The notes beneath the pieces were generated by a model. The model saw only the letters and a program-made list of their open reading frames with translations. It did no database searches and was not told the DNA's origin. DNA of 64,000 nucleotides, taken from contig NZ_CANMUW010000010.1 in assembly GCF_947501225.1 (NCBI RefSeq), forward strand, positions 107,714-171,713, read 5' to 3'. How positions within the stretch are numbered: position 1 is the first letter of the stretch; the number at the start of each line of letters is the position of its first letter. The DNA is from an uncultured Shewanella sp. (lineage in GTDB: Bacteria > Pseudomonadota > Gammaproteobacteria > Enterobacterales > Shewanellaceae). Positions 2,247 to 15,288 of this stretch are shown here, in pieces. The position numbers and the translations under genes were made by a program.

Positions 2247-3008
<762 letters not shown>

Positions 3009-3040
3009 TAACGCTTGCTGCTCTGCCCGCTAAATGAAAC

Positions 3041-3070
3041 AAAGCCTCGATAAATCGAGGCTTTGTGTTT
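3041..3070. terminator. Intrinsic terminator between adenylate kinase and island left end
   Basis: Arms AAAGCCTCGAT (3041-3051) and ATCGAGGCTTT (3054-3064) form a stem with a T-rich tail. By position it would have been the shared terminator of the adenylate kinase gene and yicC before the island inserted. The island brings a look-alike at 14364-14387. Confidence 0.85.
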
Positions 3071-3095
3071 TTAAAGAGGTTTAGCGGAGAACTAT

Positions 3096-3116
3096 TTACT
3101 CTACGTTCTGGATCTG
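3096..3116. repeat. attL core (21-bp direct repeat)
   Basis: Sequence begins TTACTCTACGTTCTGG. Read on the minus strand it encodes QIQNVE-stop, the YicC C-terminus, and it differs from attR only at a wobble base (G against A). This is the old yicC end left behind on the far side of the island. Confidence 0.93.
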
Positions 3117-3422
3117 AATATTGCTTATTGTTATTTTGCTCTTTGTTATCAGTACGTTTGTTGTTTTATGTATGTTCTTGGTTTACTCTGCCCACCATCG
3201 TGCCCACCATCGTGCCTACCATTAGTAGAACAAAATGTGTGAAACGAATTTTCTTGAGCTTGGGGCGATGCTCTATATTGGTGGCATTATTTCATGTGAC
3301 AAGAATTTCTAGAAATTTGTTAGGTTTATCATTTAAACATCGCCAATTCATGTGTAGAATCTTGATGTGAATAGAGGTTGAAAATCAACCATTTTCCTAA
3401 CTCAACAGACAAGGAATGTTAA
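3117..3422. other. Left-end non-coding stretch of the island
   Basis: This carries the arm-type repeats (3189-3221) and presumably the promoter of the defence-like operon that starts at 3423. The frame open across 3065-3370 has a composition unlike a protein gene and no ribosome binding site, so I treat the stretch as non-coding. Confidence 0.6.
3189..3221 (+). repeat. Left arm-type integrase repeats
   Basis: TGCCCACCA occurs at 3189-3197 and 3201-3209, and TGCCTACCA at 3213-3221, with an exact 12-bp period. The same nonamer in the same orientation recurs at the right end (14266-14318). Position about 75-125 bp inside the att core and matching copies at both ends fit arm-binding sites of the integrase. 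Confidence 0.75.
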
Positions 3423-4544
3423 ATGCGTTTGCATACCCTGAACCCAAATCAGAAGTATTGGGTTGTACGCCCAGGCGAGAATGGGCGTTATTTTGAGCAT
3501 TTTCGTGAAAATAATATTATGTGCTTAGGGCATATGGATGCAGTTCCTGTTGAGTCAGAAGGCTTTGTTGGTGCTAATAGTTTAGAGAGAATTGAAAGTG
3601 AGATTCGGGCACTAGAGAATAAGAAAAATCTCGATGACAGAGAATCAGCAAGTCAGCTATCAAAGAAATTATCTCAAGTGCGTACATTCGTTGATGATAT
3701 GTCTGTTGGTGATATTGTTTTTACCTTGGATTCAGATCGAATTTTACTTGGAACTATTAAATCCCAAGCCTTTGTTGATACAACGCCTCTTCGAGGTGCT
3801 GAAAGTAGAAGAGCTTCAGCGACCTTTTTGAATTATAAACTTCGACGATTCGTTGAGTGGGAGTTTCCTAAGCCGAGGCAAGGTATCCCATTGGTGGTTC
3901 GTGTTAGTTTGGCAGCTAATCAAACAGTTTTTTCTCTAGAAAATCATAAGTTGATGCTAAATCACTGGCTATTTAGTATGTTTCAGTTAGATGAAAAAAT
4001 ATATTTTTCTACTAAGTTGTCAGAAGATGAAGGGATAAGTCAGTTTCATGTGACTGAGTTTCAAAGGATGATTCAAAAGCTTGAGTTGCTTTCAGGGCTT
4101 ATACAGTCAGGAGAAATTAATAATGATAGTATTTTGGATGACACCCTAGTAAATAGAGTTGAATCTGAGTATGTCGTCAAAGGTTTAAAAGCAGAGTTTA
4201 CGCTCACTACTAAAAATGTGTTTATGTCTCCTGGAAATATTTGGAGTGAAATGAATGCGGATAAAACAAGAGCTGCAATCTTTTCGATGCTACTTTCCAC
4301 ATTTTTTTCAACAAGTGTTGATGCGGAAGAATATGTAGCTTTAAGTGAAGATGTTAGAAATGTTACGCTCAAGGTTGCTGAGAAATTTAATGAACATTCT
4401 AAGTTTGATATTTTTAAATCTTCCATTGGTGCGAGTTTGGATAAACCAAATAAAGGCATTCCTGCTATAAAAGTTACTAGTAAAATCCCAGAGAACGAAA
4501 TTATTTTTCCAGAGGATAATGAAGAGGGGGTTACCGGGTTATGA
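3423..4544 (+). CDS. EVE/PUA-like domain protein, candidate defence sensor
   Basis: The 373-residue protein opens with KYWVVRPGENGRYFEHFREN at residues 11-30, then a hydrophobic MCLGHMD strand, and near residues 97-110 has SVGDIVFTLDSDRILLG. This order (W-V-x-R-x-G-x-x-G, a short I/V-x-x-G strand, then a GD-x-V-...-hydrophobic-G strand) is how EVE-like/PUA-fold modules at the front of Mrr-type restriction proteins read; such modules bind modified bases. The rest (about residues 150-373) has no motif I recognise, and no nuclease PD-(D/E)XK pattern is obvious. AAGGA lies 7 bases before the ATG. The stop overlaps the next start as ATGA, so the two proteins are probably made together. It is AT-rich island cargo. 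Sensor role is inference. Confidence 0.6.
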   Translation: MRLHTLNPNQKYWVVRPGENGRYFEHFRENNIMCLGHMDAVPVESEGFVGANSLERIESEIRALENKKNLDDRESASQLSKKLSQVRTFVDDMSVGDIVFTLDSDRILLGTIKSQAFVDTTPLRGAESRRASATFLNYKLRRFVEWEFPKPRQGIPLVVRVSLAANQTVFSLENHKLMLNHWLFSMFQLDEKIYFSTKLSEDEGISQFHVTEFQRMIQKLELLSGLIQSGEINNDSILDDTLVNRVESEYVVKGLKAEFTLTTKNVFMSPGNIWSEMNADKTRAAIFSMLLSTFFSTSVDAEEYVALSEDVRNVTLKVAEKFNEHSKFDIFKSSIGASLDKPNKGIPAIKVTSKIPENEIIFPEDNEEGVTGL

Positions 4545-5254
4545 TTGCTTTAATAGCATTAGTTCTAGTATTACTAGTCCTAGCTGTTTATATAGCGGTT
4601 GTAAAAAAACTAGGGGCGCAGGGGGAAAAATACTCTGCATTTGCTTCAGCATTTCAACATCTGTTTGTTGTTATTTCAATAATATTCACTGCAGCTTGGA
4701 CATTGCAAACTTTCGATGTTTTAAACCAAAAAGAAAAGGCGGAGGCTGACTTAAAAGAGTTGCAAGAAAGAATTAATAATACTGAATCAACAAATATAAT
4801 AATTGATACTCAAGTCGTTGATTATGTAGTTAATAAGGAAAGGGAACGAGGCGTTATCATTGATGTAACAATAAAAAATCAAGGTAAATCAAAAGTATCA
4901 TTTGATCTTTCTAATTCGCCATTAAAAATATACCAAGTTGAAGCTTCTGGAGTAAAAATAGGTAGTAAAGAGGTACTTAAACCCAAACTTTACAGGGACT
5001 TGGCTGAGTTAGGTCGAGGTGGTGCTAAACCAAAAGGCAAAAACGTTCCTATAGATAGGTGGATTTCGTTGGCCTCATCGGAAAGAACATTGAGCTACTT
5101 TGTTACTTTAAAAGAAAGTGAAATGTATTACATAGTATTTTCTTCTAAAGCTATAGGTATGCAATCTATTGATGCGGAATGCCATGGTGAATCTGAATCA
5201 GAGTGTGATTGGTTTGTGTCAAAATATTTTTTTGTTGGTGGAAAAAATAGATAA
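4541..5254 (+). CDS. Two-helix membrane protein partnered with the EVE-like protein
   Basis: The 237 residues start with two hydrophobic segments (about 2-16 and 37-57) separated by a Lys-rich loop, then a short coiled coil with heptad-like KEKAEADLKELQERI (about 66-80), then a strand-rich domain to the end with two Cys in ECHGESESEC. The Lys-rich loop suggests that it is cytoplasmic and that the C-terminal domain is periplasmic, but this is weak. I recognise no enzyme motif. ATGA overlap with the upstream gene implies translational coupling. Paired with a putative nucleic-acid sensor, a membrane effector is a reasonable guess, as in many abortive-infection systems; it is only a guess. Confidence 0.65.
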   Translation: MIALIALVLVLLVLAVYIAVVKKLGAQGEKYSAFASAFQHLFVVISIIFTAAWTLQTFDVLNQKEKAEADLKELQERINNTESTNIIIDTQVVDYVVNKERERGVIIDVTIKNQGKSKVSFDLSNSPLKIYQVEASGVKIGSKEVLKPKLYRDLAELGRGGAKPKGKNVPIDRWISLASSERTLSYFVTLKESEMYYIVFSSKAIGMQSIDAECHGESESECDWFVSKYFFVGGKNR

Positions 5255-5343
5255 CCGATTAACTGGCCAAAATGTATCTTATTCTGAAAAACAGAACTTA
5301 GATTGACTTGGTGATTTTCTACGTATATTAATCACATTTACTT

Positions 5344-5658
5344 CTACTTTTCCTTTAACTCTTTAATTTTCATATCTTTATATCCTGAGCTTTTACCTGA
5401 CCCGTAATTGCCAAAAATAACAGAATCCTGTAATTTGTTAAGTATTTCATGATGCTTTTTTGTTTCTTCTAATATTGTGTCAATTTTTTCTGAAAATTTA
5501 GATTCATATGTGTCTTCTGCTTGATGTTTCAAGCTGAATTCAAGTCTAGAAGTAATCTCAGCGTTAAGGCTACGTTTATTAGCCTTAGATGCTTCCTCCA
5601 GGTCAGATTTTAATTCATGCGGAATTCTGATCCGCATTTGATGGTGCTCTCTGCTCAT
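5344..5658 (-). CDS. Arc-type ribbon-helix-helix DNA-binding protein
   Basis: The N-terminus has the Arc/MetJ pattern: a short strand MRIRIP (residues 8-13), then two helices HELKSDLEEASKANKRSLNA and EITSRLEFSL ending near residue 44. The rest (about 50-104) is a charged, likely coiled-coil segment EKIDTILEETKKHHEILNKL and a Lys-rich tail, probably for oligomerisation. It reads toward the membrane-protein gene and stops 90 bases from it. AGAGGT precedes the ATG at 5658. A 37-bp perfect palindrome sits 47 bases upstream, so it most likely represses its own promoter and perhaps the divergent HNH gene. Family assignment is good; targets are inferred. Confidence 0.8.
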   Translation of the reverse strand: MSREHHQMRIRIPHELKSDLEEASKANKRSLNAEITSRLEFSLKHQAEDTYESKFSEKIDTILEETKKHHEILNKLQDSVIFGNYGSGKSSGYKDMKIKELKEK

Positions 5659-5684
5659 GACTTACCTCTCATAGTTAGTCTGTC

Positions 5685-5713
5685 ATTTTACCAAAATTTT
5701 TACTTGACAGCAA
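5685..5713 (-). promoter_or_regulatory. Promoter of the ribbon-helix-helix gene
   Basis: On the minus strand an extended -10, TGGTAAAAT, ends at 5685. The -35 position, 17 bases away, reads TTGCTG (5708-5713) and lies inside the palindrome, so bound repressor would block RNA polymerase. A further TGTCA half-site overlaps the -10 (5681-5685). Confidence 0.55.
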
Positions 5714-5741
5714 TTGTCACACGGTGTGACAATTGCTGTCA
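5705..5741. promoter_or_regulatory. 37-bp perfect palindromic operator
   Basis: Arms TGACAGCAATTGTCACAC (5705-5722) and its exact complement (5724-5741) flank one G. Each arm itself contains TGACA and TGTCA, giving four half-sites. It lies between the divergent regulator and HNH genes. Ribbon-helix-helix repressors bind such repeated half-sites in tandem. Confidence 0.8.
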
Positions 5742-5837
5742 GTTGCGTTATTTGATGAAAGTGGGCTCTGATATTTTAATTTTTGTTGTTTTAAGTTGTT
5801 AATATGTTGGCTTTTAACTTAAAAAAAGGGGGGGAGG

Positions 5838-6947
5838 ATGCTTATAGAGAAGCTATGTAAGTCTTGTGGCAGTATGTTGAATATTTCAAATTTTTACCGT
5901 TCAAAGATTATTAAGGACGGTTTTGTTAATAAGTGCAAAAACTGTATGAAAAAACAAGCAAGTAAAAGGCATAAACATACTTGCATGCAGTGTAAGTCTG
6001 ATTTTACAAGCTCTATAGCAATCTCAAAGTACTGTTCCTCTTCATGCTCTGTGAATGCTAGAAGAAAGAGGGTTGAAGTTGAATGTGCATTTTGTAAAGC
6101 CGCAATAGAAGTGATGCAATGCAAAATTAGAATGCATAAAAAGTTTTATTGCGATAAGACCTGTAAAGCAGAAAACCAAAGGCTAATGGTCGGGAGTGCA
6201 CATCATAACTACAATAGAGTTGAATATAGCTGTGATGGGTGTAATAAACTAATAGATGTTGTCCCTAACCGTATCGAAAGGCAAAAATATATTTTCTGTT
6301 CTAAAGGTTGCTTTAAAAGTAATGTTGGTAAATTCTATTTAGGTGAGAATAATGGCAATTATATTAAGTCGATAAGTAAAATTTGTCCAGAATGCGCTCG
6401 AGACTTTGAAAGAAAACCAGGGCAGTTTGAGCATAATGTCTCATATTGCTCGAGAGAGTGTTATTTTACATCACGACGAAAACTTGATTTAAAAATTGAT
6501 AGAGTGCAGTTGACTTGCCCTTGTTGTAAACAGTTGTTCAAAAGGTTACCTTCGCAGATAAAAGGTAAAAAGAACATCTATTGCTCTAAACAATGTAAAA
6601 ATGTTGACCATGGAAAAATATATTTCGGTAGTTCTCACCCTAGATTTAATGCGGAGCTGACAGATGATGAAAGGGTGGACAGAAGAAAGTCTAATGAATA
6701 TTATATTTGGCGTGAGAAAGTTTACGCGCGTGATAATTATACGTGTCAATGTTGCAAAGATAATAAAGGTAAAAACTTAAATGCGCATCATAAGTATAGT
6801 TATAGAGATAACGAAGACCTTAGGACTGTTTTGAGTAATGGTGTTACTCTCTGTAAGCGTTGTCACAGTAAATTTCATGATATATACGGGTATGGGAATA
6901 ATACAAAAGAGCAGTTTGATGTTTTTTTAAAGGTGTATGGAAACTAG
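5838..6947 (+). CDS. HNH endonuclease with six tandem zinc fingers
   Basis: The C-terminal HNH nuclease has CQCC (303-306), AHH (316-318) and LCKRCHSKFH (338-347), which supply the zinc knuckle and the catalytic His pair. Before it run six Cys4 modules of CxxC...(F/Y)CSxxC type: C7/C10-C33/C36, C49/C52-C66/C70, C83/C86-C105/C109, C132/C135-C154/C158, C183/C186-C204/C208 and C227/C230-C249/C253. Such repeats usually contact DNA, so a long recognition site is plausible, as in homing endonucleases. AGGA just before ATG 5838 lies in a run of seven A and seven G that could slip and change expression. No intron or intein host is visible nearby. It may be a selfish nuclease or a defence nuclease. 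Confidence 0.85.
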   Translation: MLIEKLCKSCGSMLNISNFYRSKIIKDGFVNKCKNCMKKQASKRHKHTCMQCKSDFTSSIAISKYCSSSCSVNARRKRVEVECAFCKAAIEVMQCKIRMHKKFYCDKTCKAENQRLMVGSAHHNYNRVEYSCDGCNKLIDVVPNRIERQKYIFCSKGCFKSNVGKFYLGENNGNYIKSISKICPECARDFERKPGQFEHNVSYCSRECYFTSRRKLDLKIDRVQLTCPCCKQLFKRLPSQIKGKKNIYCSKQCKNVDHGKIYFGSSHPRFNAELTDDERVDRRKSNEYYIWREKVYARDNYTCQCCKDNKGKNLNAHHKYSYRDNEDLRTVLSNGVTLCKRCHSKFHDIYGYGNNTKEQFDVFLKVYGN

Positions 6948-7309
6948 GTGATGTGATGGGGGCTGCTCCCAATGAAAAACCTAGCAGTTCCCCTGCATGA
7001 GTAGGGCCCTTAGTTGCTTACACTTGCTTGATATATTTATATATTAGTTAGTAATAATGCTATTGAATAACTTGATGTTTGCGCTGCTTCCTTACTTTTT
7101 TTGCTCACGAACTAATGATTGAACATTCCTTTTCCTGATGGGGGCGGCCTGAAGCTGATGTTGCCAGCATCTGGATAGTTATCTGGTCGGGTCTTCTATT
7201 CATTTAGAATTGTTTTGTAACCCTCCTTATTTTTAAATAAGAAGGGTTACAGTGGCTATAGATGAGTATAACAGCTTGAGTAATTTGATTACTTTATTCT
7301 ATTGAATAG
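6948..7309. other. Intergenic region between convergent genes
   Basis: It holds a bulged stem GGGGCTGCT...AGCAGTTCCCC near 6960-6997 right after the HNH gene and a second, longer hairpin at 7217-7250. I see no coding frame or RNA gene in it. Confidence 0.5.
7217..7250. terminator. Long hairpin before the convergent exported-protein gene
   Basis: Arms GTAACCCTCCTTATTT (7217-7232) and AAATAAGAAGGGTTAC (7235-7250) pair with one mismatch over 16 bp and a 2-base loop. There is no clear T run, so it may be a bidirectional terminator or a remnant repeat. Confidence 0.45.
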
Positions 7310-7756
7310 TTATATATCGCCACACTTTATCGTTAGGCTGTGATTGTTTTCATCTACAAGTTCGGTTACCAGCATAAGCTCAGATGACAGTTGAGTATAT
7401 TTTTCTTCATCCAATCTAGGCCACATATTCTTAGCTAGTTTTTCCGTTGGGAAGAAGTTGGTTGTTACCTTGTGTAATGAATTACATTGTTCTTGTGTAA
7501 GGTATTTCGACTTACCGCTAAATGAAACTTTTAGTCCAAGCCTGTTGTTTTGCTCAATGACTGATGTGTTGTAAAAATCGAATTTGGTATTTTTAATTGA
7601 GTCACCTTTTGCTTTTTGTGTTGTAAATGCAGAAAAAATTTCCAACTGCATTTTTCCAAGATCGTACTTCGTTGCTGGTGTTTCTTTTAGTTCATCTAGC
7701 ACACCAGCATTAACTGAAAATGTAGCTGCTAAAAATAGAGTTAAGAATAGTCTCAT
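7310..7756 (-). CDS. Small exported protein of unknown function
   Basis: A signal peptide of about 17 residues (MRLFLTLFLAATFSVNA) precedes a 130-residue mature part that is mostly polar, with two Cys (in QEQCNSLH and IKCGDI) that could form one disulfide. No family recognised. It is followed on the same strand by nothing closer than the convergent HNH gene, and a second small exported-protein gene lies upstream in the same direction with an intergenic gap of about 90 bases. GGAGCAGTAA stands before the ATG. Likely periplasmic island cargo. Confidence 0.65.
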   Translation of the reverse strand: MRLFLTLFLAATFSVNAGVLDELKETPATKYDLGKMQLEIFSAFTTQKAKGDSIKNTKFDFYNTSVIEQNNRLGLKVSFSGKSKYLTQEQCNSLHKVTTNFFPTEKLAKNMWPRLDEEKYTQLSSELMLVTELVDENNHSLTIKCGDI

Positions 7757-7847
7757 TTACTGCTCCAATGTTTTTAATGTAATTGGCTAGATATTGCCTA
7801 CATAGGTAATATCTAGCCATACTTGGTCTTGTGAGGTATATATTTGT

Positions 7848-8189
7848 TTAGCACCCTTTTAGCGGCTCATAGCAAATAATTTTATTATTGATTTTGTTTT
7901 TAGAAAAAATTGCATACATTCCTGGAGTTACTGCAAACATGTCGCCCTTTTTCATTACCTCAGCTCCTTTTTGTGCTTTGCTTTTTTGATGATAAAACCA
8001 AAGAACACAGAAACGGTTACTTGAGCATAATGATTTACCTATTTCATCAAGCTTGCGTTCTGTCAATTGTCTATCCTCAGTGAGGAGAACTTTAGAGTTT
8101 CCTTTGTCGTACATGACATCAAAATCAGCTCCAGTTGCACTTAATGAGAAGAGGACTCCGACGAGCAAAACTAATGGCATCCATTTCAT
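7848..8189 (-). CDS. Small exported protein of unknown function
   Basis: The best start is the ATG at 8189, preceded by AAGGA at a good distance, giving 113 residues; longer in-frame starts (to 8246) lack a ribosome binding site. Residues 1-20 (MKWMPLVLLVGVLFSLSATG) are a signal peptide. The mature part is basic and has four Cys (CSSNRFC and CYEPLKGC), suggesting two disulfides. I recognise no family. It lies just upstream of the other small exported protein and may share its transcript. Confidence 0.62.
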   Translation of the reverse strand: MKWMPLVLLVGVLFSLSATGADFDVMYDKGNSKVLLTEDRQLTERKLDEIGKSLCSSNRFCVLWFYHQKSKAQKGAEVMKKGDMFAVTPGMYAIFSKNKINNKIICYEPLKGC

Positions 8190-9041
8190 TTTTAACATCC
8201 TTATATTTAGATTTGTTCGATAAGTTAACACATTGATAGGATGCATTAAATGTCATGAATCACAGAGTCAACTTAGTTTGAGGTTTGGGTATAGGCTTTA
8301 GGGTTAGAATTTTTCGATGTCAAAGACTTCGCTACGAATAATGCATCTCTGAGCATTGCTGTATAGTCACTCGATTCTCTTGGGAGCAGATAAAGAGAGG
8401 GAACCAGGCTAGCACAAACTATAAACCTCCATAAGTGCACTACTATAAATATTTGTGAACTAAGTTGGCTGACAGTTGTTTTTAATGTAATGGGAATTTA
8501 TCAGCCTGCGAAAAAAAGTTCTTATTTATTGCGCATAAAAATTGACTTAGGGGGACGGTGTTCAGTTTTAAGCTAGTAGATATTTGACCTCCCCCCTCCC
8601 TCATTCTATAGGGAGGAATGTTTGGTCGGTAGAGGGCTGTAGCCCTTATAAACACTGAGGGATAGGCGGTTATATGTTTTTTGAAATTAGATAGCAGATA
8701 CGCCATGTTTTGAGGCTAAACTACGGCGTTCAACTTCATCGATCTAGTGTCATTCTTTGTCATAACTCGATGGAAAAAGTAGTTTTTTTCCCGCATTTAA
8801 GCCCAAACTTCGGTTAAATAAGGCTGGATTTCGCTAATTGTTGAGCTGTTTTCAATGCTTAGGTTAGTGTTATTGCGCTCGTACTGGTGTTTGTGACGGG
8901 TCACAAACACCACTTTTCAGCCTTATTTTGCTGTAACCTGTGGTATTAGCATCTTGTAATGTTCGACTACCAGGTAGCGAATGATTGCGACTAGGGCACA
9001 ACTAACTAGTAGGATGATGACAAGTTTTTTGGAGCAACTAT
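8190..9041. other. 850-base non-coding stretch inside the island
   Basis: No credible gene: the only open frame (8482-8706, minus) has no ribosome binding site and low-quality composition. The stretch contains three inverted repeats: CCTCCC/GGGAGG near 8592-8613, AGGGCTGTAGCCCT near 8632-8645, and a perfect 28-base palindrome at 8885-8912. A transfer origin, replication origin or decayed gene could sit here; nothing decides between them. Confidence 0.5.
8885..8912. repeat. Perfect inverted repeat, 13-bp arms
   Basis: TGGTGTTTGTGAC and GTCACAAACACCA flank a GG centre. It lies about 130 bases past the stop of the nucleotidyltransferase gene. Without a T run it resembles a protein-binding palindrome or transfer-origin element more than a terminator. 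Confidence 0.6.
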
Positions 9042-9713
9042 TCACACAGGTATGGTTTCGATTATTTGAAATACAACCTTATGCTCAAACTGTTCGTAGC
9101 CCTCGTTATGCCCTTGGATGCTGATAACTCTTGAGCCGTTTTTGAGGTACTTGCGTACATCCAATTCAGGCCAACAAATTACTTCACTATAGTTTTTAAA
9201 TCGACGTCCTTCAGCAAGCATGTCTTTGGTCCTCTGTTCGCGGATGCTCGAAAAGGCGGCTTCGAATTTTGGTTTTTTTGCTAACCAGACAAATATGTCT
9301 ATGTCACTCACAGGTCCAGTCCCTGATAGATAGCTACCGAACAGAGCTACTTTGGTAACTTGATACATATACAGGTCGTCATCATTGATCTCTGAGACTC
9401 TTGCCAGAAACGCTTGATAGTGTTTGTCGGCTGTTGTTCGTTTAACTTTCTTGGCTGCACTGGCTTGAACTAAGGAGGCGGCCATCATGGTTAGTTGCCA
9501 GCGTGGTGTCTTGTTGTCATCACTTATTCTTTCAAAGTATCCCTCGAACTCAAACGCTTCTATGCGTGCCTTGGCGATCCGTTGGCTTGTATCGAATCGA
9601 TTGGCAAAGCATCGGACTGAGAAGCCTTTTTTTTCGAAGGGAATATTACTGACAAGCTTTCGTGCGTCCAGTGCTGGTAATCCTGCGATGATTGTATTTG
9701 AGTCTATTTTCAC
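9042..9713 (-). CDS. Nucleotidyltransferase-fold protein with winged-helix N-terminus
   Basis: The core motif GSYLSGTGPVSDIDIF (about residues 126-141) is the GS-x-DxD signature of the DNA polymerase beta-type nucleotidyltransferase fold, placing the two metal-binding Asp in SDIDIF. Residues 1-75 look like a winged-helix domain (KARIEAFEFEGYFERISDD...RWQLT) that might bind DNA. The arrangement is reminiscent of the MNT antitoxin enzymes, but no HEPN partner lies next to it, so I do not call a toxin-antitoxin pair. ATG 9713 is preceded by GGAGCTAATTGTGAAA. It stands alone, with long non-coding stretches on both sides. Confidence 0.7.
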   Translation of the reverse strand: MKIDSNTIIAGLPALDARKLVSNIPFEKKGFSVRCFANRFDTSQRIAKARIEAFEFEGYFERISDDNKTPRWQLTMMAASLVQASAAKKVKRTTADKHYQAFLARVSEINDDDLYMYQVTKVALFGSYLSGTGPVSDIDIFVWLAKKPKFEAAFSSIREQRTKDMLAEGRRFKNYSEVICWPELDVRKYLKNGSRVISIQGHNEGYEQFEHKVVFQIIETIPV

Positions 9714-10118
9714 AATTAGCTCCTAATCCTATGATGTTCAATAAAGTTATTTTCTCTAGCATGGTTTACCGCTGTTAACCGTAGTCAGAATGCGTCAAAC
9801 GACAGTCTGTATCCCTGTCATTACAAGGGTTTTTCCAGTGACCTGGTAACATTGCTGCTGTTGCATAGGGGCCGCAATATTTTTCCAGATACTGCGGGCC
9901 TCGTACCCGTGGTTAAAGTTGAATTCCCCAGGGACCCCGATGTTTTTAAATCACCGCGCGATTCACGCAATTCGTTGATATAGAAGTTTTTTAATCTTCT
10001 ATTTATGTTGCTGATAACTGCCAAAATAACTCATCAATTACTGCTTTTATGAGTCATTTAAAATCAGTGTGTTAGCTTCCATTTGGGACGTAACTTATAA
10101 ACTGTCTCAAGTTGGATA
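9714..10118. other. Non-coding stretch between nucleotidyltransferase and recombinase genes
   Basis: It contains an imperfect stem GGCCGCA...TGCGGGCC (near 9869-9902) and CCAGTGACCTGG (9835-9846). No gene is supported. It could include the recombination site of the adjacent small recombinase. Confidence 0.4.
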
Positions 10119-10724
10119 TTAATCACCAAATAATGCCCGGTCTCCCGCTACGAACGTATCAACTAGGTCTTGTTCGTTATTGTCGAGATAGTTAATCGTT
10201 GTCTCAGGTTTGCTGTGGTTTAGAAGTTGTTGCAGCTCCTCAAGCGTGACGCCAGCCTGTTGTCTTAGCCTAGAGCCTGATTTTCTTAATGAGTGAGTGC
10301 CAAGATTTACACCGCCTAAACGGCCATTTGTTCTGCGCCACTTAATCACATCAGTTTCAACCTCACACATCCAACGCCAAGCTGTCTTTCTGCTAATTGG
10401 CCTACGCGATCCTCCATGCCTGCTTTCAAATAGGTATTGGTCATGCGGGTACTCAAGTCGTATTTGGTTTAATAGCTTGATAGCGTGGGGTGTAAGAGTA
10501 ATGACTTTTACTTTTTGGGTTTTGGTTTCCACTATTGAAAATTCACCAGTCTCAAATGACTCATCAATTTGTTCTGTTGTGATGGCGAGAAGATCACTAA
10601 TCCTTAATGCCCAAAGTGAGGTGAGTTCTGCAAGCCAGCGAGCTTTTAGACCTCTGTTGCGTTCGAGTGCATTAAGGATGACCTTAAATTCATCTCTATT
10701 TCTTGCTGAATGGACTCTGGACAT
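10119..10724 (-). CDS. Small tyrosine recombinase (catalytic domain only)
   Basis: All hallmarks of the catalytic domain are present in 201 residues: ALRISDL with the first Arg near residue 42, TKTQKVKVITL with the likely Lys, HSLRKSGSRL (HxxR, about 144-147), LLNHSKPETT and the nucleophile Tyr in INYLD. The N-terminal core-binding domain of ordinary integrases is missing and nothing suggests frameshifting, so this is a compact enzyme of the kind found on plasmids and islands. It stands 6 bases after a 69-residue ORF. Besides the main integrase at the right end it gives the island a second recombination activity, perhaps dimer resolution or inversion. Confidence 0.85.
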   Translation of the reverse strand: MSRVHSARNRDEFKVILNALERNRGLKARWLAELTSLWALRISDLLAITTEQIDESFETGEFSIVETKTQKVKVITLTPHAIKLLNQIRLEYPHDQYLFESRHGGSRRPISRKTAWRWMCEVETDVIKWRRTNGRLGGVNLGTHSLRKSGSRLRQQAGVTLEELQQLLNHSKPETTINYLDNNEQDLVDTFVAGDRALFGD

Positions 10725-10730
10725 GGCTAA

Positions 10731-10940
10731 TTACTCCAGTAGATATTGTTTTACTGTTTGCTGCGCTAATTTCTCAATATCGACTGATAGATCGATCATT
10801 AAGCTGAATAGGCTAGATATGTCTGAGTCTTTCATTTCGCTGATGTCACTATTTTTAGAAGCTACTGAAATAGCTTTAATTTGGTTAGCTTTAGATTGGA
10901 TTTGCTCCAGGTTGTTTGATGTTATGTGTTGTTTTGTCAT
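10731..10940 (-). CDS. Small helical protein upstream of the recombinase
   Basis: This 69-residue acidic, all-helical ORF (ISSLFSLMIDLSVDIEKLAQQ) is preceded by AAGGT at a suitable distance and followed after 6 bases by the recombinase gene. I recognise no family. Tight spacing and a set of ACCAG palindromes in front suggest that the two genes form one regulated unit. It could be an accessory factor of the recombinase. Confidence 0.55.
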   Translation of the reverse strand: MTKQHITSNNLEQIQSKANQIKAISVASKNSDISEMKDSDISSLFSLMIDLSVDIEKLAQQTVKQYLLE

Positions 10941-11000
10941 CTTCGTCTTACCTTAATTCAATTACTCTATAGATGTCGGGTATGGCTATATATGTAGTAA

Positions 11001-11192
11001 ACCAGTTTCTGGTACGTACTTTTTGCAAAGCTAAAATCGTGACGCTTCAAGTTAAGCTATAAAATTCAATTTATTAGCGTTGCTTTGGGTAATGTTTCAT
11101 ATACCAGTTTCTGGCGTTTGCTTTCTCTGCTTTAGGAATGGTTTACACCAGTTAATGGATCAAACACTAAGATGTTTGTACCAGTAACTGGT
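11001..11192. repeat. Four ACCAGTTWMTGGT palindromes
   Basis: Copies at 11001-11013 (ACCAGTTTCTGGT), 11103-11115 (ACCAGTTTCTGGC), 11147-11159 (ACCAGTTAATGGA) and 11180-11192 (ACCAGTAACTGGT, fully palindromic). They fill the 269-base gap between the winged-helix gene and the recombinase unit. Either operators for that unit or iteron-like sites. Confidence 0.7.
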
Positions 11193-11209
11193 ATGGGTTT
11201 CTTAATTCG

Positions 11210-11623
11210 CTATTTTGACTGGGCCTTATTCCAATCATTTCGAATGGGGGCTGTTGTGGGCTTAACTGTCATTTGTCCTTTGCCTCTGTAGTCGTCAACA
11301 GCTTCCCAGGTAATTGCATATAGAGTCGGTGGCAATCCTCCTTTTCTCGATGTTGAGCCACTACCTGTAATTTCAATTAAGCGGTTTTTAATCAGTAATT
11401 TCAGTGCTTTCCTCATGGTGTCTTGTCCGCCAAAATTGGTTTTCATCTGCTCCCATGTGCATGTAAGGTTCCCATTGTTGTAACCGTTCCATTGTCTAGC
11501 TATTAGCGTGAGGAGCTTGACCGCGTTGCCGTTGCAGTTTGCGAAGTCGGCAGAGTCAATTACGCAATGGGGCAAGCTGGTATAACGCTTGTGAGAGCTT
11601 CTGCTCTGTTTTCGTCTGGCCAT
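11210..11623 (-). CDS. Winged-helix protein, replication- or regulation-type
   Basis: The 137 residues begin with a basic stretch (ARRKQSRSSHKRY) followed by a winged-helix fold: helix NAVKLLTLIARQWNGYNNG, WEQMKTNFGGQDTMRKALKLLIKNRLIEITG, then a wing with Gly-rich SGSTSRKGG. This resembles the N-terminal domains of plasmid or phage replication initiators and of replication-linked regulators, but there is no second initiator domain. The four ACCAG palindromes start right after its stop. A link between the two is attractive but unproven. A shortened initiator or a stand-alone repressor are both possible. Confidence 0.65.
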   Translation of the reverse strand: MARRKQSRSSHKRYTSLPHCVIDSADFANCNGNAVKLLTLIARQWNGYNNGNLTCTWEQMKTNFGGQDTMRKALKLLIKNRLIEITGSGSTSRKGGLPPTLYAITWEAVDDYRGKGQMTVKPTTAPIRNDWNKAQSK

Positions 11624-11656
11624 AACTCGCCTATGAGCTAGTTGTTATCAATGAAT

Positions 11657-11917
11657 CTAAAGATGCTTGTGATGGCTGGTGTACCATTGATTGATAGGCT
11701 CAAATTTGTCGCCATAATCTATAATTCGTTTGAAATCTTCTAAGTTATCAACTCGGGCCGCTCCGAAATAAACCTTGGTTTTAAGGCCCTCTTTGCATCT
11801 CAATATTGTGAAATGTAATGGCTCCTTACCTTGATGGGCGATTATGACACCACGCCGTTGGTACACATGTGCATCGTTAATTGGGAGGTCTAACCCATTC
11901 CTCGTTAATAGCTTCAT
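11657..11917 (-). CDS. Small hypothetical island protein
   Basis: This 86-residue, mostly strand-forming, basic protein (INDAHVYQRRGVIIAHQGKEP) overlaps the stop of the upstream AlpA-like gene as ATGA, so it is probably translated with it. No signal peptide, membrane segment or recognised family. The spacing to the downstream winged-helix gene is 33 bases, so the three likely form one transcript. Confidence 0.6.
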   Translation of the reverse strand: MKLLTRNGLDLPINDAHVYQRRGVIIAHQGKEPLHFTILRCKEGLKTKVYFGAARVDNLEDFKRIIDYGDKFEPINQWYTSHHKHL

Positions 11918-12213
11918 TTAGCCTCCATAGAGGCTGTTGCGCCTTTACTATGGGATAGTGGAGTGTGATTTCTTTGTACTGGGTTGTAGATGAACCAAAG
12001 TAGATCAGATAAAACCCAAGCTACAGAGTTCGCGCCTAATTTTTTGCATTTGGGGTGCTTACCTTCGCGCTCAAGCTTCCATGTCTGAGAGCGTGAGATC
12101 GAAGTTATACGCTCGCGCTCTGCACTTCTTACGAGGCGCTCTGATAGGCCTGCGCTGTGTAGTACTTCTTGGCGCTGCTCAGGTGTTGGTGGGATAAATT
12201 GATAGGTATTCAT
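11914..12213 (-). CDS. AlpA-like DNA-binding regulator
   Basis: Residues 34-73 read ERITSISRSQTWKLEREGKH...KCKKLGANSVAWVLSDLLWFI, the AlpA/excisionase-type winged helix pattern (ISRSxxW-x(4)-G-x-xP-x(5)-LG-x(4)-W-x-xS-x-xxxW). In P4-like elements AlpA proteins activate integrase expression and act as directionality factors; a similar role for excision of this island is inferred. It is 99 aa, with extra residues at both ends. It stands about 90 bases after a 242-residue gene and overlaps the next gene by 4 bases. Confidence 0.8.
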   Translation of the reverse strand: MNTYQFIPPTPEQRQEVLHSAGLSERLVRSAERERITSISRSQTWKLEREGKHPKCKKLGANSVAWVLSDLLWFIYNPVQRNHTPLSHSKGATASMEAK

Positions 12214-12305
12214 AAGCCTTCACTTGTGTTGGTAAGTTCAGGCATATCGTATTGCGAGTCCTAGAGTATTTCCGCCTAGTTTTAAAAGTTAAAACTAGGC
12301 GGTTT

Positions 12306-13034
12306 CTACTTCATATTTTTGATATTGGCTGTAAATTGCTCTAGATATTCAAAGGTCATCGCTTCTTTAGCATATGGAACAGTATTTTTTCTCAGATAGT
12401 CGGAAGTTATTAGTTCTTTATGGGCTATCGCATCGGTGATTAATTTTGGCGTCATTTTCCACCCGTACACCCGTGCCCAAAGAGTTAAGTCTAAATATTC
12501 GAATACACCATAAGAAAATAGCTTTCTATGCTTTTTTCCATTTGCGGCTTGTGGGCGTTCTGGTTCAGGTACATCAAGCTCGCTTCGCAGCCTTGTTAAT
12601 AGTCGTGCAAGTTCTTGTCCGATTTCTTTGTCCGTGGCATGAGAAAGGCTTATACCGACACAAACCCCTTTACCATCAAACGCACTATGTATGATGTCGT
12701 TAAATTGATGTAAGTATGCATGTTCCCCAGAATCTAAAGATCCTTGCGGTAGTTGCTTGGCCATTCTGGCTATATCATATGAGTGTATCGGATGAACATT
12801 TTCATCGGGGTAATCAATTAGCTCATTTGAAGTTGCTTGGTTTTTTTCAGAAAAAAGTTCTGATTGCAGCTCAAAATCTGGCTCTCCAATATCTAAGGCC
12901 CGTTTAACAAAATATCTCAGTGCTAATTCTTCGTAGATGGTTCCTAGGCTTGAATTTTGTATGTTTCTGTATCTGCTTTCTGTGAACCAAGGGATTAGTT
13001 TTAGCAGTTGTTCCTGGCTGATTGTTTTGTTCAT
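12306..13034 (-). CDS. Unrecognised integrase-proximal island protein
   Basis: 242 residues without signal peptide or membrane helix. The N-terminus LLKLIPWFTESRYRNI and the C-terminal LDLTLWARVYGWKMTPKLI / TFEYLEQFTANIKNM recall the conserved hypothetical proteins encoded beside integrases in P4-like islands (DUF6387-type), but I cannot confirm it. It begins four bases after the integrase stop, so it is very likely co-transcribed with the integrase. No catalytic motif is apparent. Confidence 0.6.
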   Translation of the reverse strand: MNKTISQEQLLKLIPWFTESRYRNIQNSSLGTIYEELALRYFVKRALDIGEPDFELQSELFSEKNQATSNELIDYPDENVHPIHSYDIARMAKQLPQGSLDSGEHAYLHQFNDIIHSAFDGKGVCVGISLSHATDKEIGQELARLLTRLRSELDVPEPERPQAANGKKHRKLFSYGVFEYLDLTLWARVYGWKMTPKLITDAIAHKELITSDYLRKNTVPYAKEAMTFEYLEQFTANIKNMK

Positions 13035-13038
13035 TCCA

Positions 13039-14253
13039 TCATCCGTTGATTATTGGTTCGAGTAGAGCCGCCACTTTGGCGTGAGCTTCCTTGCGTTCTT
13101 TTAGGTAATCGTGGCGATCATAGATACCTTCAACACCTTTCAGTTTGTGGTTTAGGCAACGCTCGGCAACATGGCCAGGCACACCAGCGTAAGCAGCTAA
13201 GCTCCTGAATGTTCTTCTAAGATCATGAGGGGAAAAATGCTCCATATCTCCCATTAGATTAGGGGGCTGTATCTTGCGCCCTGGTTCACGGCCGAACATT
13301 TTAGAAATGGCTCTGTTAAGTGTGTCATTCCCCATGTGCAGTTTGGTTGAAACTCTACGAGGTGGAAAAACGTAATCAGCGCCACAGGCACGCATTTGAA
13401 GCTCTGTTAGCCAAGCCATTACCTGTTTAGGCAATGGTATAGTGATAGGTGCGCCTGTCTTACTTCTGCCTTCTGGTAGGTGCCACAGAGCTTTATCGAG
13501 TTCAAATTCCTCCCATTTAGCACAGCACAATTCACTTTTACGAACGCCAAGGGTGACTAGTAGGGCACAGGCTAGATAATTGTCTCTGGTAAATTTAGCT
13601 TGGTTCTCTCTAAATAGCTTAAATGCAGTTTTAAGTTCATCGATTGATAATGCTCTATCTCTACTTGTTTCTATGCCGCCAGCATCAGAAACAGTAAAAG
13701 CGCTAGCTGGGTTGTTAGCTAGTAAGTCTAGTTTTATGCCATGGCGAAAAAGTTGTTTTAAATACATCAAAGAGTCATTGGCAATGGTGGGGCGTTCCTT
13801 GGCAATGCTCAGGATTATGGCTCTGATATCGCGTGCATTAACTTGTTCGATCTTCATGTCACCGATGGATGGCTTTATGTCTTTCAGATAAACACGTTTA
13901 GGGATATGTGGATGCTTTAATCGTTTGGCAATATCGTTGTCATACCAATCTTGAAATAGGTCATCGACTACACGGATTGACTGCTCTTTGATTCGCCTTC
14001 TGGCAACTAGGGGATCGGCTCCTGATTTTACTTCACGCTTTTGTATCGCTGCATCGGCTTTGGCATCTGCTAGTGATAAATCAGGATACTGACCAATCGT
14101 CATCTCTTTACGTTTACCGTTGGATGAATAGCGGAGCATCCAGTAGGGAGTCGCGTTATTTCTAACGACTAGATAAAGCCCACCGCCGATTGGGTGGCGT
14201 TTTGGCTCGCCTTTAACAAATGATTGGATTTGCTTTGCTGTTACCGTTGCCAT
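13039..14253 (-). CDS. P4-type tyrosine integrase of the island
   Basis: Catalyses site-specific insertion into the yicC 3' end and, with a directionality factor, excision. The catalytic residues are visible: Arg in TLGVRKSELC, the HxxR in FSPHDLRRTFRS, His in CLNHKLKG and the Tyr nucleophile in GIYDRHDY. The N-terminal arm-binding domain reads FVKGEPKRHPIGGGLYLVV...YWMLRY, the usual P4-type layout. I place the start at ATG 14253 (404 aa), which has AAAAGG at a good distance; the longer in-frame start at 14319 would run through the arm-type repeats. Its right neighbour is attR, as expected for an intact island. Confidence 0.93.
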   Translation of the reverse strand: MATVTAKQIQSFVKGEPKRHPIGGGLYLVVRNNATPYWMLRYSSNGKRKEMTIGQYPDLSLADAKADAAIQKREVKSGADPLVARRRIKEQSIRVVDDLFQDWYDNDIAKRLKHPHIPKRVYLKDIKPSIGDMKIEQVNARDIRAIILSIAKERPTIANDSLMYLKQLFRHGIKLDLLANNPASAFTVSDAGGIETSRDRALSIDELKTAFKLFRENQAKFTRDNYLACALLVTLGVRKSELCCAKWEEFELDKALWHLPEGRSKTGAPITIPLPKQVMAWLTELQMRACGADYVFPPRRVSTKLHMGNDTLNRAISKMFGREPGRKIQPPNLMGDMEHFSPHDLRRTFRSLAAYAGVPGHVAERCLNHKLKGVEGIYDRHDYLKERKEAHAKVAALLEPIING

Positions 14254-14265
14254 AGGAATACCTTT

Positions 14266-14318
14266 TGCCCACCAATTGTGTTTTAGGGTAAAGTCATTGC
14301 TCACCACTTTGCCCACCA
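14266..14318 (+). repeat. Right arm-type integrase repeats
   Basis: TGCCCACCA at 14266-14274 and 14310-14318 and TGCTCACCA at 14298-14306; the last two have the same 12-bp period as the left set. They lie right before the integrase start, so integrase binding could repress its own gene. Confidence 0.75.
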
Positions 14319-14363
14319 CAAATGATACATCTAACGGAAACGAATGGAAACAGGTGGAAATAA

Positions 14364-14387
14364 AAAGCCCCGTAAAAACGAGGCTTT
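14364..14387. terminator. Island-borne copy of the yicC terminator
   Basis: Arms AAAGCCCCG and CGAGGCTTT pair with one mismatch. It takes the place of the chromosomal terminator (3041-3070) that the insertion separated from yicC, so the island restores both the coding end and a transcript end. Confidence 0.6.
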
Positions 14388-14424
14388 AAAGTGATTTGTG
14401 AGAGCTTAAGAAAACGTGAAAAAC

Positions 14425-14445
14425 TTACTCTACATTCTGGATCTG
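14425..14445. repeat. attR core (21-bp direct repeat)
   Basis: Begins TTACTCTACATTCTGG and forms the last seven codons (including stop) of the intact yicC gene. One silent difference from attL. Confidence 0.93.
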
Positions 14446-15288
14446 TTCACGCATCTGCTCGATTAAGACCTTGAGTTCTACAGCGGCGGCGGTGACCTCT
14501 GCGCTGATAGACTTAGAAGCTAAGGTGTTAGACTCGCGGTTAAACTCCTGCATCATGAAGTCGAGGCGGCGGCCCTGTGCGCCACCTTTCTTAAGGATGC
14601 GTTGGGTTTCGGCAACGTGGGCGTCGAGTCTGTCCATCTCTTCGGCGACATCCATCTTCTGGGCAAGAATCACCATCTCCTGCTCCATACGAGCCGGATC
14701 CAGCTCACCGGTGATCTCATTGAGTCGGTTAGTCAGCTTGTCTCGCTGCCACTGCATAACGGTAGGCATATGCTCACGAACGATGGCAACCTGCTCTACT
14801 ATGGCATCCAGGCGAGTCTGTAGCATGGTCTTGATAGCCTCGCCTTCACGACCGCGGGCTTCGATGAACTGTTCGATGGCAGAATCGAAAGCGACAAGCA
14901 GCTCTTTACCCAGTGCATCCATATCCTGCTCTGAGCCTGACATGACACCAGGCCACTTCAGGATATCGACCAGGTTAAGCTCACCCTGACCGGCTTCCTG
15001 CTTAACCCAGTTAGCGGCGCTAATAAGCTGCTTGGCAAGGTCCTGATTAACCTGCAGCTCGTTGTTTGCGTTTTCGGCGAGGTCGTATCTTAAGTTAACT
15101 TCGATCTTGCCGCGGTTTAAACGTTTACGCAGACGGTCTCTTAATACCGGCTCCAGGTTGCGAAAGTGTTCGGGTAGGCGCAGGTAGGTTTCCAGATAGC
15201 GCTGATTGACTGAACGAATTTCCCAAGAGGCGGTGCCCCATTCGGCTTTGTGCTCGATACGAGCATAGGCTGTCATACTTTGGATCAT
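14425..15288 (-). CDS. yicC: YicC family endoribonuclease
   Basis: The 287 residues follow E. coli YicC over the whole length: N-terminal MIQSMTAYAR, SVNQRYLETYLRLPE, and the C-terminal GRRLDFMMQEFNRESNTL...LIEQMREQIQNVE. YicC-type proteins are endoribonucleases involved in RNA turnover. The gene is intact; its last codons are supplied by the island's attR. It is divergent from rph with a 180-base gap, the common gammaproteobacterial order. The right half of the island insertion therefore leaves YicC unchanged in sequence. Confidence 0.95.
   Translation of the reverse strand: MIQSMTAYARIEHKAEWGTASWEIRSVNQRYLETYLRLPEHFRNLEPVLRDRLRKRLNRGKIEVNLRYDLAENANNELQVNQDLAKQLISAANWVKQEAGQGELNLVDILKWPGVMSGSEQDMDALGKELLVAFDSAIEQFIEARGREGEAIKTMLQTRLDAIVEQVAIVREHMPTVMQWQRDKLTNRLNEITGELDPARMEQEMVILAQKMDVAEEMDRLDAHVAETQRILKKGGAQGRRLDFMMQEFNRESNTLASKSISAEVTAAAVELKVLIEQMREQIQNVE

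Follow-up and report, generated by a model that had tools for sequence, protein, structure and literature searches.

On balance, two overlapping genes in the window, the whole 64,000-nucleotide stretch of uncultured Shewanella DNA analysed here, appear to form a two-gene module against phages, with a nucleic-acid reader that is tethered to the membrane and would trigger a membrane or periplasmic partner; we hold this reading with slightly more confidence than doubt. The observations behind it are the reader-like fold of a predicted model, the co-inheritance of the two genes, a signal-like segment confined to the paired sensors, and the mobile or defence surroundings of the relatives. Prophages and defence islands harbour relatives of the pair, and this suggests an undescribed alarm against phages at the cell membrane, in which a reader-like domain appears to be wired to the membrane and, by means of a secretion signal buried in its chain, to the periplasm as well. 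If the reading is correct, bacteria can recognise viral nucleic acid by its modification and answer with a response of the envelope, and the sensor can exchange its membrane partner while the layout stays unchanged.

The gene pair and its genomic island

Both reading frames and their ATGA overlap were recovered as the sequence-only reading had given them (Table 1), and the N-terminal peptides that it quoted from protein 1 are present in the sequence. When the 1,832 bases were shuffled 200 times, the longest ORF per shuffle measured 71 aa in the median and never exceeded 126 aa; the ORFs of gene 1 and gene 2 are far longer than this. The AT-richness claimed for the two genes also held, with a GC content of 36.8% for gene 1 and 33.8% for gene 2 versus 48.6% for the window outside positions 3009-14424. 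As had likewise been proposed, the pair lies at the left end of an island: by eye, these are the first genes past what we take to be adk (end 3008), at the start of the low-GC stretch. At the far end of this stretch, again by eye, a presumed tyrosine integrase-like gene (13039-14319, minus strand) adjoins a presumed yicC-like gene, and a shorter integrase gene assigned by Pfam lies within it (10119-10724, minus strand). The longest word common to 3001-3450 and 14201-14600 was 11 bases, and attachment repeats were not found between these two segments. We call the stretch, as judged by eye, an island.

Table 1. Features of the gene pair, in window positions; functional names are predictions.
Feature	Positions	Strand	Basis
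Gene 1, putative EVE/YTH-fold sensor with internal signal-like segment, 373 aa	3423..4544	+	ORF; PDC-S02; phrog_10226; AlphaFold2
Protein 1, N-terminal EVE/YTH-like (PUA superfamily) domain, residues ~7-185	3441..3977	+	predicted fold
Protein 1, middle region, residues ~186-280, S-P-G motif at 269-271	3978..4262	+	no family found
Protein 1, internal hydrophobic segment and signal-peptidase-I-like site SVDA/EE, residues ~281-301	4263..4325	+	strict motif; model helix
Protein 1, C-terminal tail, residues 302-373, predicted periplasmic	4326..4541	+	inferred from preceding segment
ATGA overlap of gene 1 and gene 2	4541..4544	+	
Gene 2, putative membrane partner of the type A family, 237 aa	4541..5254	+	ORF; relatives adjoin gene 1 relatives
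Protein 2, first predicted membrane helix, residues 2-25	4544..4615	+	model helix; missing in several relatives
Protein 2, second predicted membrane helix into predicted coiled coil, residues 32-79	4634..4777	+	model helix, block pLDDT 65-81; coiled coil by eye
Protein 2, strand-rich C-terminal domain, residues ~90-237, predicted periplasmic	4808..5251	+	charges (by eye); conserved residues

Two further genes of the window were recorded in passing. One (5838-6947, plus strand) encodes a 369-aa protein with an HNH domain (PF01844) that resembles phage HNH endonuclease families. The other (9042-9713, minus strand) encodes a protein with a nucleotidyltransferase domain (PF01909) and PADLOC PDC-S09 matches (1.8e-6), and may be a further gene of defence or toxin-antitoxin type in this island.

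The N-terminal module of protein 1

The AlphaFold2 model of protein 1, with a mean pLDDT of 70 and an alignment of 10 sequences behind it, shows a PUA-like fold in the N-terminal domain, and its Foldseek matches include EVE/YTH-type structures with a best E of 0.0016; in this comparison, the absence of a fold from the results does not count against that fold. The structural half of the EVE/PUA assignment made in the sequence-only reading was thus upheld in the predicted model, but its HMM half was not: none of the 23 gene 1 members scanned matched Pfam EVE or YTH at E up to 1, which leaves the predicted model and the Foldseek matches as the basis of the fold claim. Protein 1 is accordingly described here as a predicted EVE/YTH reader by fold and not by Pfam sequence models.

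Residues 11-182 match the first half, and just the first half, of the PADLOC candidate-defence model PDC-S02 (2.5e-9), and residues 2-220 match phrog_10226 (4.6e-18). All 23 scanned gene 1 relatives matched PDC-S02 at E up to 1 (best 2.3e-19), and Trp13 and Trp146, candidate residues for an aromatic pocket around the modified base, are invariant in all of them. Nothing significant or above curated cut-off was found for either window protein in Pfam, NCBIfam or the PDB sequences, and window protein 1 as a query found no match in phages or plasmids. With relatives as queries, two phage searches gave 10 and 7 records, four of which were read, and a single plasmid relative came from L. brevis; there was no match in E. 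coli genomes.

The module is shared with proteins of other architectures. The gene 1 profile matches five Mrr-type proteins over 149 columns, and Mrr_cat (PF04471) accompanies the N-terminal module in the two proteins checked (L018 and L011); among the 13 matches of one search, 10 covered the N-terminal module only, and a search with relatives as queries matched part of a protein annotated as a restriction endonuclease. Mrr_cat is absent from window protein 1 (Pfam) and from the 23 gene 1 members, one of which has a weak Pfam match to PDDEXK_9 (0.081). A nuclease domain in the C-terminal half of protein 1 was considered and rejected on the sequence searches; matches to the PADLOC type II nuclease model REase_II in 8/23 members (best 0.00037, matching region unassigned) are not accounted for. 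Separately, L017 (1333-2628) carries a module of the gene 1 type ahead of an AbiGi domain (PF10899) and may be another base-sensing abortive system.

Among the closest known systems, PDC-S02 proteins and Mrr-type proteins are like protein 1 in this module only, since the C-terminal half of protein 1 consists of a predicted membrane segment and a tail and a second gene follows. L017 resembles protein 1 in placing the module ahead of another domain, but its C-terminal domain differs. The YTH domains of the m6A readers YTHDF2 and YTHDC1 are also among the closest systems, without a Pfam match for the protein 1 family. EVE readers are known to be coupled to nucleases; in its available text, the EVE-context survey by Bell and colleagues includes EVE-PD(D/E)XK and EVE-HNH fusions, and the words transmembrane, MazG and Mrr are absent from its main text (PMC7641849). 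EVE-HNH type IV enzymes such as VcaM4I, in the available part of their description (PMC7897488), are nuclease-coupled, whereas the sensor here is predicted to be membrane-coupled. No description of the gene 1/gene 2 pair was found in the literature searched, most subscription papers being outside its coverage.

A buried signal-like segment in the paired sensors

The middle region of protein 1 matched no Pfam family in more than one of the 23 members; in its S-P-G motif, Ser269 and Gly271 are invariant in 23/23 and Pro270 is present in at least 90%. The model then shows a helix at residues 281-295, followed by a candidate cleavage site after residue 301, and its pLDDT falls below 50 from residue 336. 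In the paired sensors, a hydrophobic stretch near residues 280-330, with its core at about 279-327, ends in a signal-peptidase I-like site or a lipobox, and a tail of 64-113 residues lies beyond the core. The lipoboxes occur in two lineages and read LTGC in L039, L040 and L071, LTSC in L072, and LSGC in L041.

A first, loose cleavage-site rule was rejected because 95 of 150 control membrane segments also fit it, although its lipobox part does discriminate (5/17 paired sensors versus 2/150 controls). A strict rule, composed after inspecting the 17 paired sequences, fits 16 of these 17 and 5 of 187 control segments; it fits none of the seven unpaired Gram-negative relatives and none of the five relatives from Bacillota. 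The controls are hydropathy-predicted internal segments from ORFs of the window and of the relatives' loci, some of which are perhaps not real genes. Controls of similar charge bias fit it in 4/62 cases, and no lipobox was found in the 187 controls. The single paired miss, L073, has SVA/EEIK, and L077, which was found after the rule had been fixed, fits (1/1). The core hydrophobicity of the unpaired L020 and L026 equals that of the paired sensors, but the site is missing from both. This division between paired sensors with and unpaired relatives without the signal-like site yields a directly testable prediction.

With a hydrophobic core and a peptidase site or lipobox within the chain, the paired sensors are judged from their sequences to carry an internal signal-like segment. 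Because of this segment, the sensor is probably cytosolic, with one membrane pass and an exported tail; cleavage by signal peptidase is putative. In the Bacillota relatives (L053-L057), 4/5 have a hydrophobic segment at the corresponding place, with the opposite charge bias.

Two unrelated families of membrane partner

Protein 2 belongs to the partner family that we call type A. The sequence-only reading had described it as two membrane helices, a coiled coil and a strand-rich domain. Its single-sequence model, which is poor (mean pLDDT 48, below 50 from residue 82), does contain helices at 2-25 and 32-79 followed by strands, and the coiled coil was recognised by eye; several type A relatives, on the other side, have only one or no membrane helix above the hydropathy threshold used. 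In an alignment of eight type A members, Trp53, Phe58, Asp59 and Gln63 are invariant, the tryptophan lying in the last membrane helix and the F-D pair after it. The strand-rich domain conserves Asn113, Pro148, Tyr151, Leu184, Tyr196, Tyr197, Phe200, Trp224, Ser227 and Tyr229 and ends in WxxSxY. No recognised toxic or pore-forming domain is present in protein 2; DUF4352 is matched weakly by 4/8 members (best 0.0053, under the Pfam cut-off), and PADLOC gave two weak single-member matches to the type A family (0.015 and 0.019).

The C-terminal half of protein 1 and the whole of protein 2 had been said to match nothing recognisable. This stands insofar as no Pfam match passes the cut-off, but protein 2 is not an orphan: it has eight relatives, seven of them at 30-33% identity and all adjoining a gene 1 relative, and one further on a viral contig. 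A single protein 2 query found no match in plasmids, phages or the viral scan; in 126 genomes of the window's genus it found its own copy and a match of E 0.0075 that we take for chance.

At nine other loci, an unrelated membrane protein of about 190 aa, type B, occupies the same place. Joining types A and B into one family was rejected, with an hhalign probability of 0.4% and a sole blastp match of 42 residues at 0.03-0.05.

The arrangement recalls ToxR and ToxS, in which a cytosolic nucleic-acid domain, one membrane helix and a periplasmic tail are encoded next to an overlapping gene for a bitopic partner. We think it unlikely that the window pair works in this outside-in manner, in which the periplasmic tail and protein 2 would sense something that happens at the envelope, for instance the attachment of a phage or its injection, and would switch the cytosolic nucleic-acid-binding domain to act on DNA, RNA or transcription. 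The likeness of layout to ToxR/ToxS speaks for it, as do the conserved C-terminal parts of both partner families and the two cysteines that are invariant in the C-terminal part of eight aligned type B members; yet the predicted cytosolic domain resembles a base reader, no winged helix was seen in protein 1, and the N-terminal module also precedes nuclease domains.

Pairing and co-divergence

The pairing of gene 1 and gene 2 is real. The survey covered 25 full-length gene 1 proteins of Gram-negative bacteria, each locus once and with the window included, and 18 of them had a membrane protein gene directly downstream. This proportion is favoured by the search design, in which gene 2 relatives were mostly recognised by looking beside gene 1. 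Type A partners stand at nine loci (the window, L044, L071-L076 and L077), among which that of L044 was found by tblastn (2.8e-17) with its start codon unsettled. Type B partners stand at nine (L022, L024, L027, L036/L048, L037, L038, L039, L040 and L041), all from the genus Pseudomonas except one viral contig. The seven loci with neither partner are L002, L019, L020, L021, L023, L025 and L026. The co-occurrence of homologues of both genes, on which the proposal of a two-gene system depended, was confirmed for the nine type A loci. From the gene 2 side, the only true relative came from the profile search, a single viral locus (L077) in which gene 1 adjoins and whose contig was also met by the gene 1 search.

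In the P. putida genus, 8/348 genomes match gene 1 and all eight are paired (seven type B, one type A); in the genus of the Pseudoalteromonas locus, 6/108 match, with three type A pairs, one unpaired and two matching in the N-terminal module only; and in that of the Vibrio locus, 7/112 match, with three type A pairs, one unpaired and three weak. Gene 1 is rare and patchy in the window's own genus (2/129 genomes, namely the window and the unpaired L002); its order gave 2/394. This set of relatives is a lower bound, as the contig scan used one peptide pattern, with 8/16 stretches confirmed.

The intergenic gaps of the 15 pairs measured range from -14 to +69 bases, with start codons as chosen by the ORF caller. 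Distances between gene 1 proteins agree with those between their partners, with a Mantel r of 0.96 for eight type A pairs and 0.95 for nine type B pairs, both inflated by near-copies (gene 1 identities of 97% for L039/L040, 78% for L071/L072, 80% for L075/L076 and 81% for L022/L024). In a tree built from the part of gene 1 before the SPG motif, type B sensors form one clade (99/98), type A sensors form one clade with weak support (77/53), and six unpaired relatives group together (95/97), the seventh, L026, lying next to type B (89/80). Placement is unsure for the long branches of L044, L025 and the L. brevis row.

Two loci were scored as unpaired despite notable downstream genes. In L023, a Tle1-like phospholipase gene (7995-10580; PF09994) with two predicted membrane helices begins 70 bases past the gene 1 relative and could be a third kind of partner. 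In L026, a one-helix protein (9345-9884) is encoded 270 bases past gene 1 and may represent yet another type of partner.

A toxin-antitoxin-like pair, in which protein 2 would be a membrane toxin restrained by the exported tail of protein 1, would account for the overlap of the genes, their co-divergence and the interchangeable partner. We nevertheless consider it distinctly improbable, given gene 1 relatives that exist without a partner and an N-terminal module common to nuclease fusions. If phage-triggered, such a pair would equally be a defence system and does not exclude the favoured reading.

A proposed mechanism

In the favoured anti-phage module, protein 1 would be a cytosolic EVE/YTH-fold reader, as modelled, of modified or otherwise foreign nucleic acid. 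Its internal signal-anchor would hold it at the inner membrane and export the C-terminal tail, which signal peptidase might then cut or, in the lipobox relatives, lipidate on the periplasmic side. The coiled coil and the strand-rich domain of protein 2 would face the periplasm and contact this tail. Binding of phage DNA or RNA at the membrane would then cause a change that is relayed across the membrane to protein 2, which by analogy may disturb the envelope or stop DNA entry. The reader step follows from the predicted fold alone, the membrane link from co-inheritance together with the signal segment, and the effector step from analogy; we infer the ligand, the topology and the direction of signalling, and likewise that the tail is cleaved and that protein 2 does harm.

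In a sharper version, protein 1 would be a receptor that spans the membrane and detects phage nucleic acid by its modification: a cytosolic EVE/YTH base reader with an internal signal peptide would have its tail freed or lipidated in the periplasm by signal peptidase I or II, and there the tail would control an interchangeable partner of type A or B. This version is tentative, and we would sooner doubt it than assert it. By its conserved adjacency, the pair seems to fall among sensor plus membrane partner systems. The earlier suggestion of a modified-DNA or phage-nucleic-acid sensor that triggers membrane damage is partly supported, by the predicted reader fold, the conserved pairing and the defence or prophage settings of some relatives; its ligand and damage step are conjectural.

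In favour of the module, the N-terminal module of gene 1 also heads Mrr nucleases and an AbiGi protein. Against it stand the lack of a Pfam EVE or YTH match, the seven Gram-negative relatives without either partner, from which gene 1 may work alone, the hydrophobic cores of two of these (L020 and L026), a protein 2 without a known toxic domain and with a poor model, the post hoc cleavage rule, and the PADLOC type II nuclease matches in 8/23 members.

Surroundings of the relatives

Among the loci typed, a location in defence islands or as prophage cargo was found for some relatives, through retron, type IV nuclease, CBASS and prophage settings. In L044, a type II-A retron (NDT and RT) lies directly upstream of the pair. 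In 3/3 Vibrio pairs, an HNH nuclease gene and a MazG-like gene lie directly upstream on the same strand; the HNH nuclease genes match a type IV restriction model over their HNH part, and the Pfam assignment of MazG comes from L074 alone. Near the unpaired L004 are CBASS genes (cyclase and E1-E2). The HNH proteins of L004, L005 and L074-L076 showed no sequence link to gene 1 (hhalign 1.6%), so the EVE-HNH label for them is by eye only.

Other pairs are placed as in prophages: L076 and L077 lie between integrase and CI repressor genes, and L027 between two integrase genes. Each of the five Bacillota relatives (L053-L057: four phage or satellite-phage records and one plasmid) has an integrase gene downstream of it in the same orientation; no partner was recognised in these five loci, SF39 and G2-Guo having small unnamed-function genes 0.2-0.4 kb downstream. 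In the available text on E. coli P2-like phages, comparable prophage spots are reservoirs of anti-phage systems (PMC9122126).

These placements bear on two further explanations. The prophage cargo position of some relatives and the predicted membrane location of both proteins would suit superinfection exclusion, in which the device would grip phage DNA as it arrives at the inner membrane, so that entry is blocked without killing the cell. We give this a low probability, as a modified-base reader would seem an odd choice for general exclusion; the present observations do not separate it from the favoured module. Not all prophage cargo genes serve defence, and the pair might instead belong to prophage or island housekeeping, such as the regulation of lysogeny. 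Several members do lie in prophages, and a defence role is read from context; the adjoining retron and type IV nucleases and the rare, patchy occurrence of gene 1 (in the genus counts above) make such a non-defence role very doubtful.

Two minor observations concern the type A loci. A frame in L071 (7999-8907), named by eye as a DNA adenine methylase, has no Pfam match and is possibly a wrong frame, and it was set aside. In L074, a 480-aa gene (4439-5878, minus strand) downstream of the pair matches PADLOC PDC-M36A at 1.3e-44.
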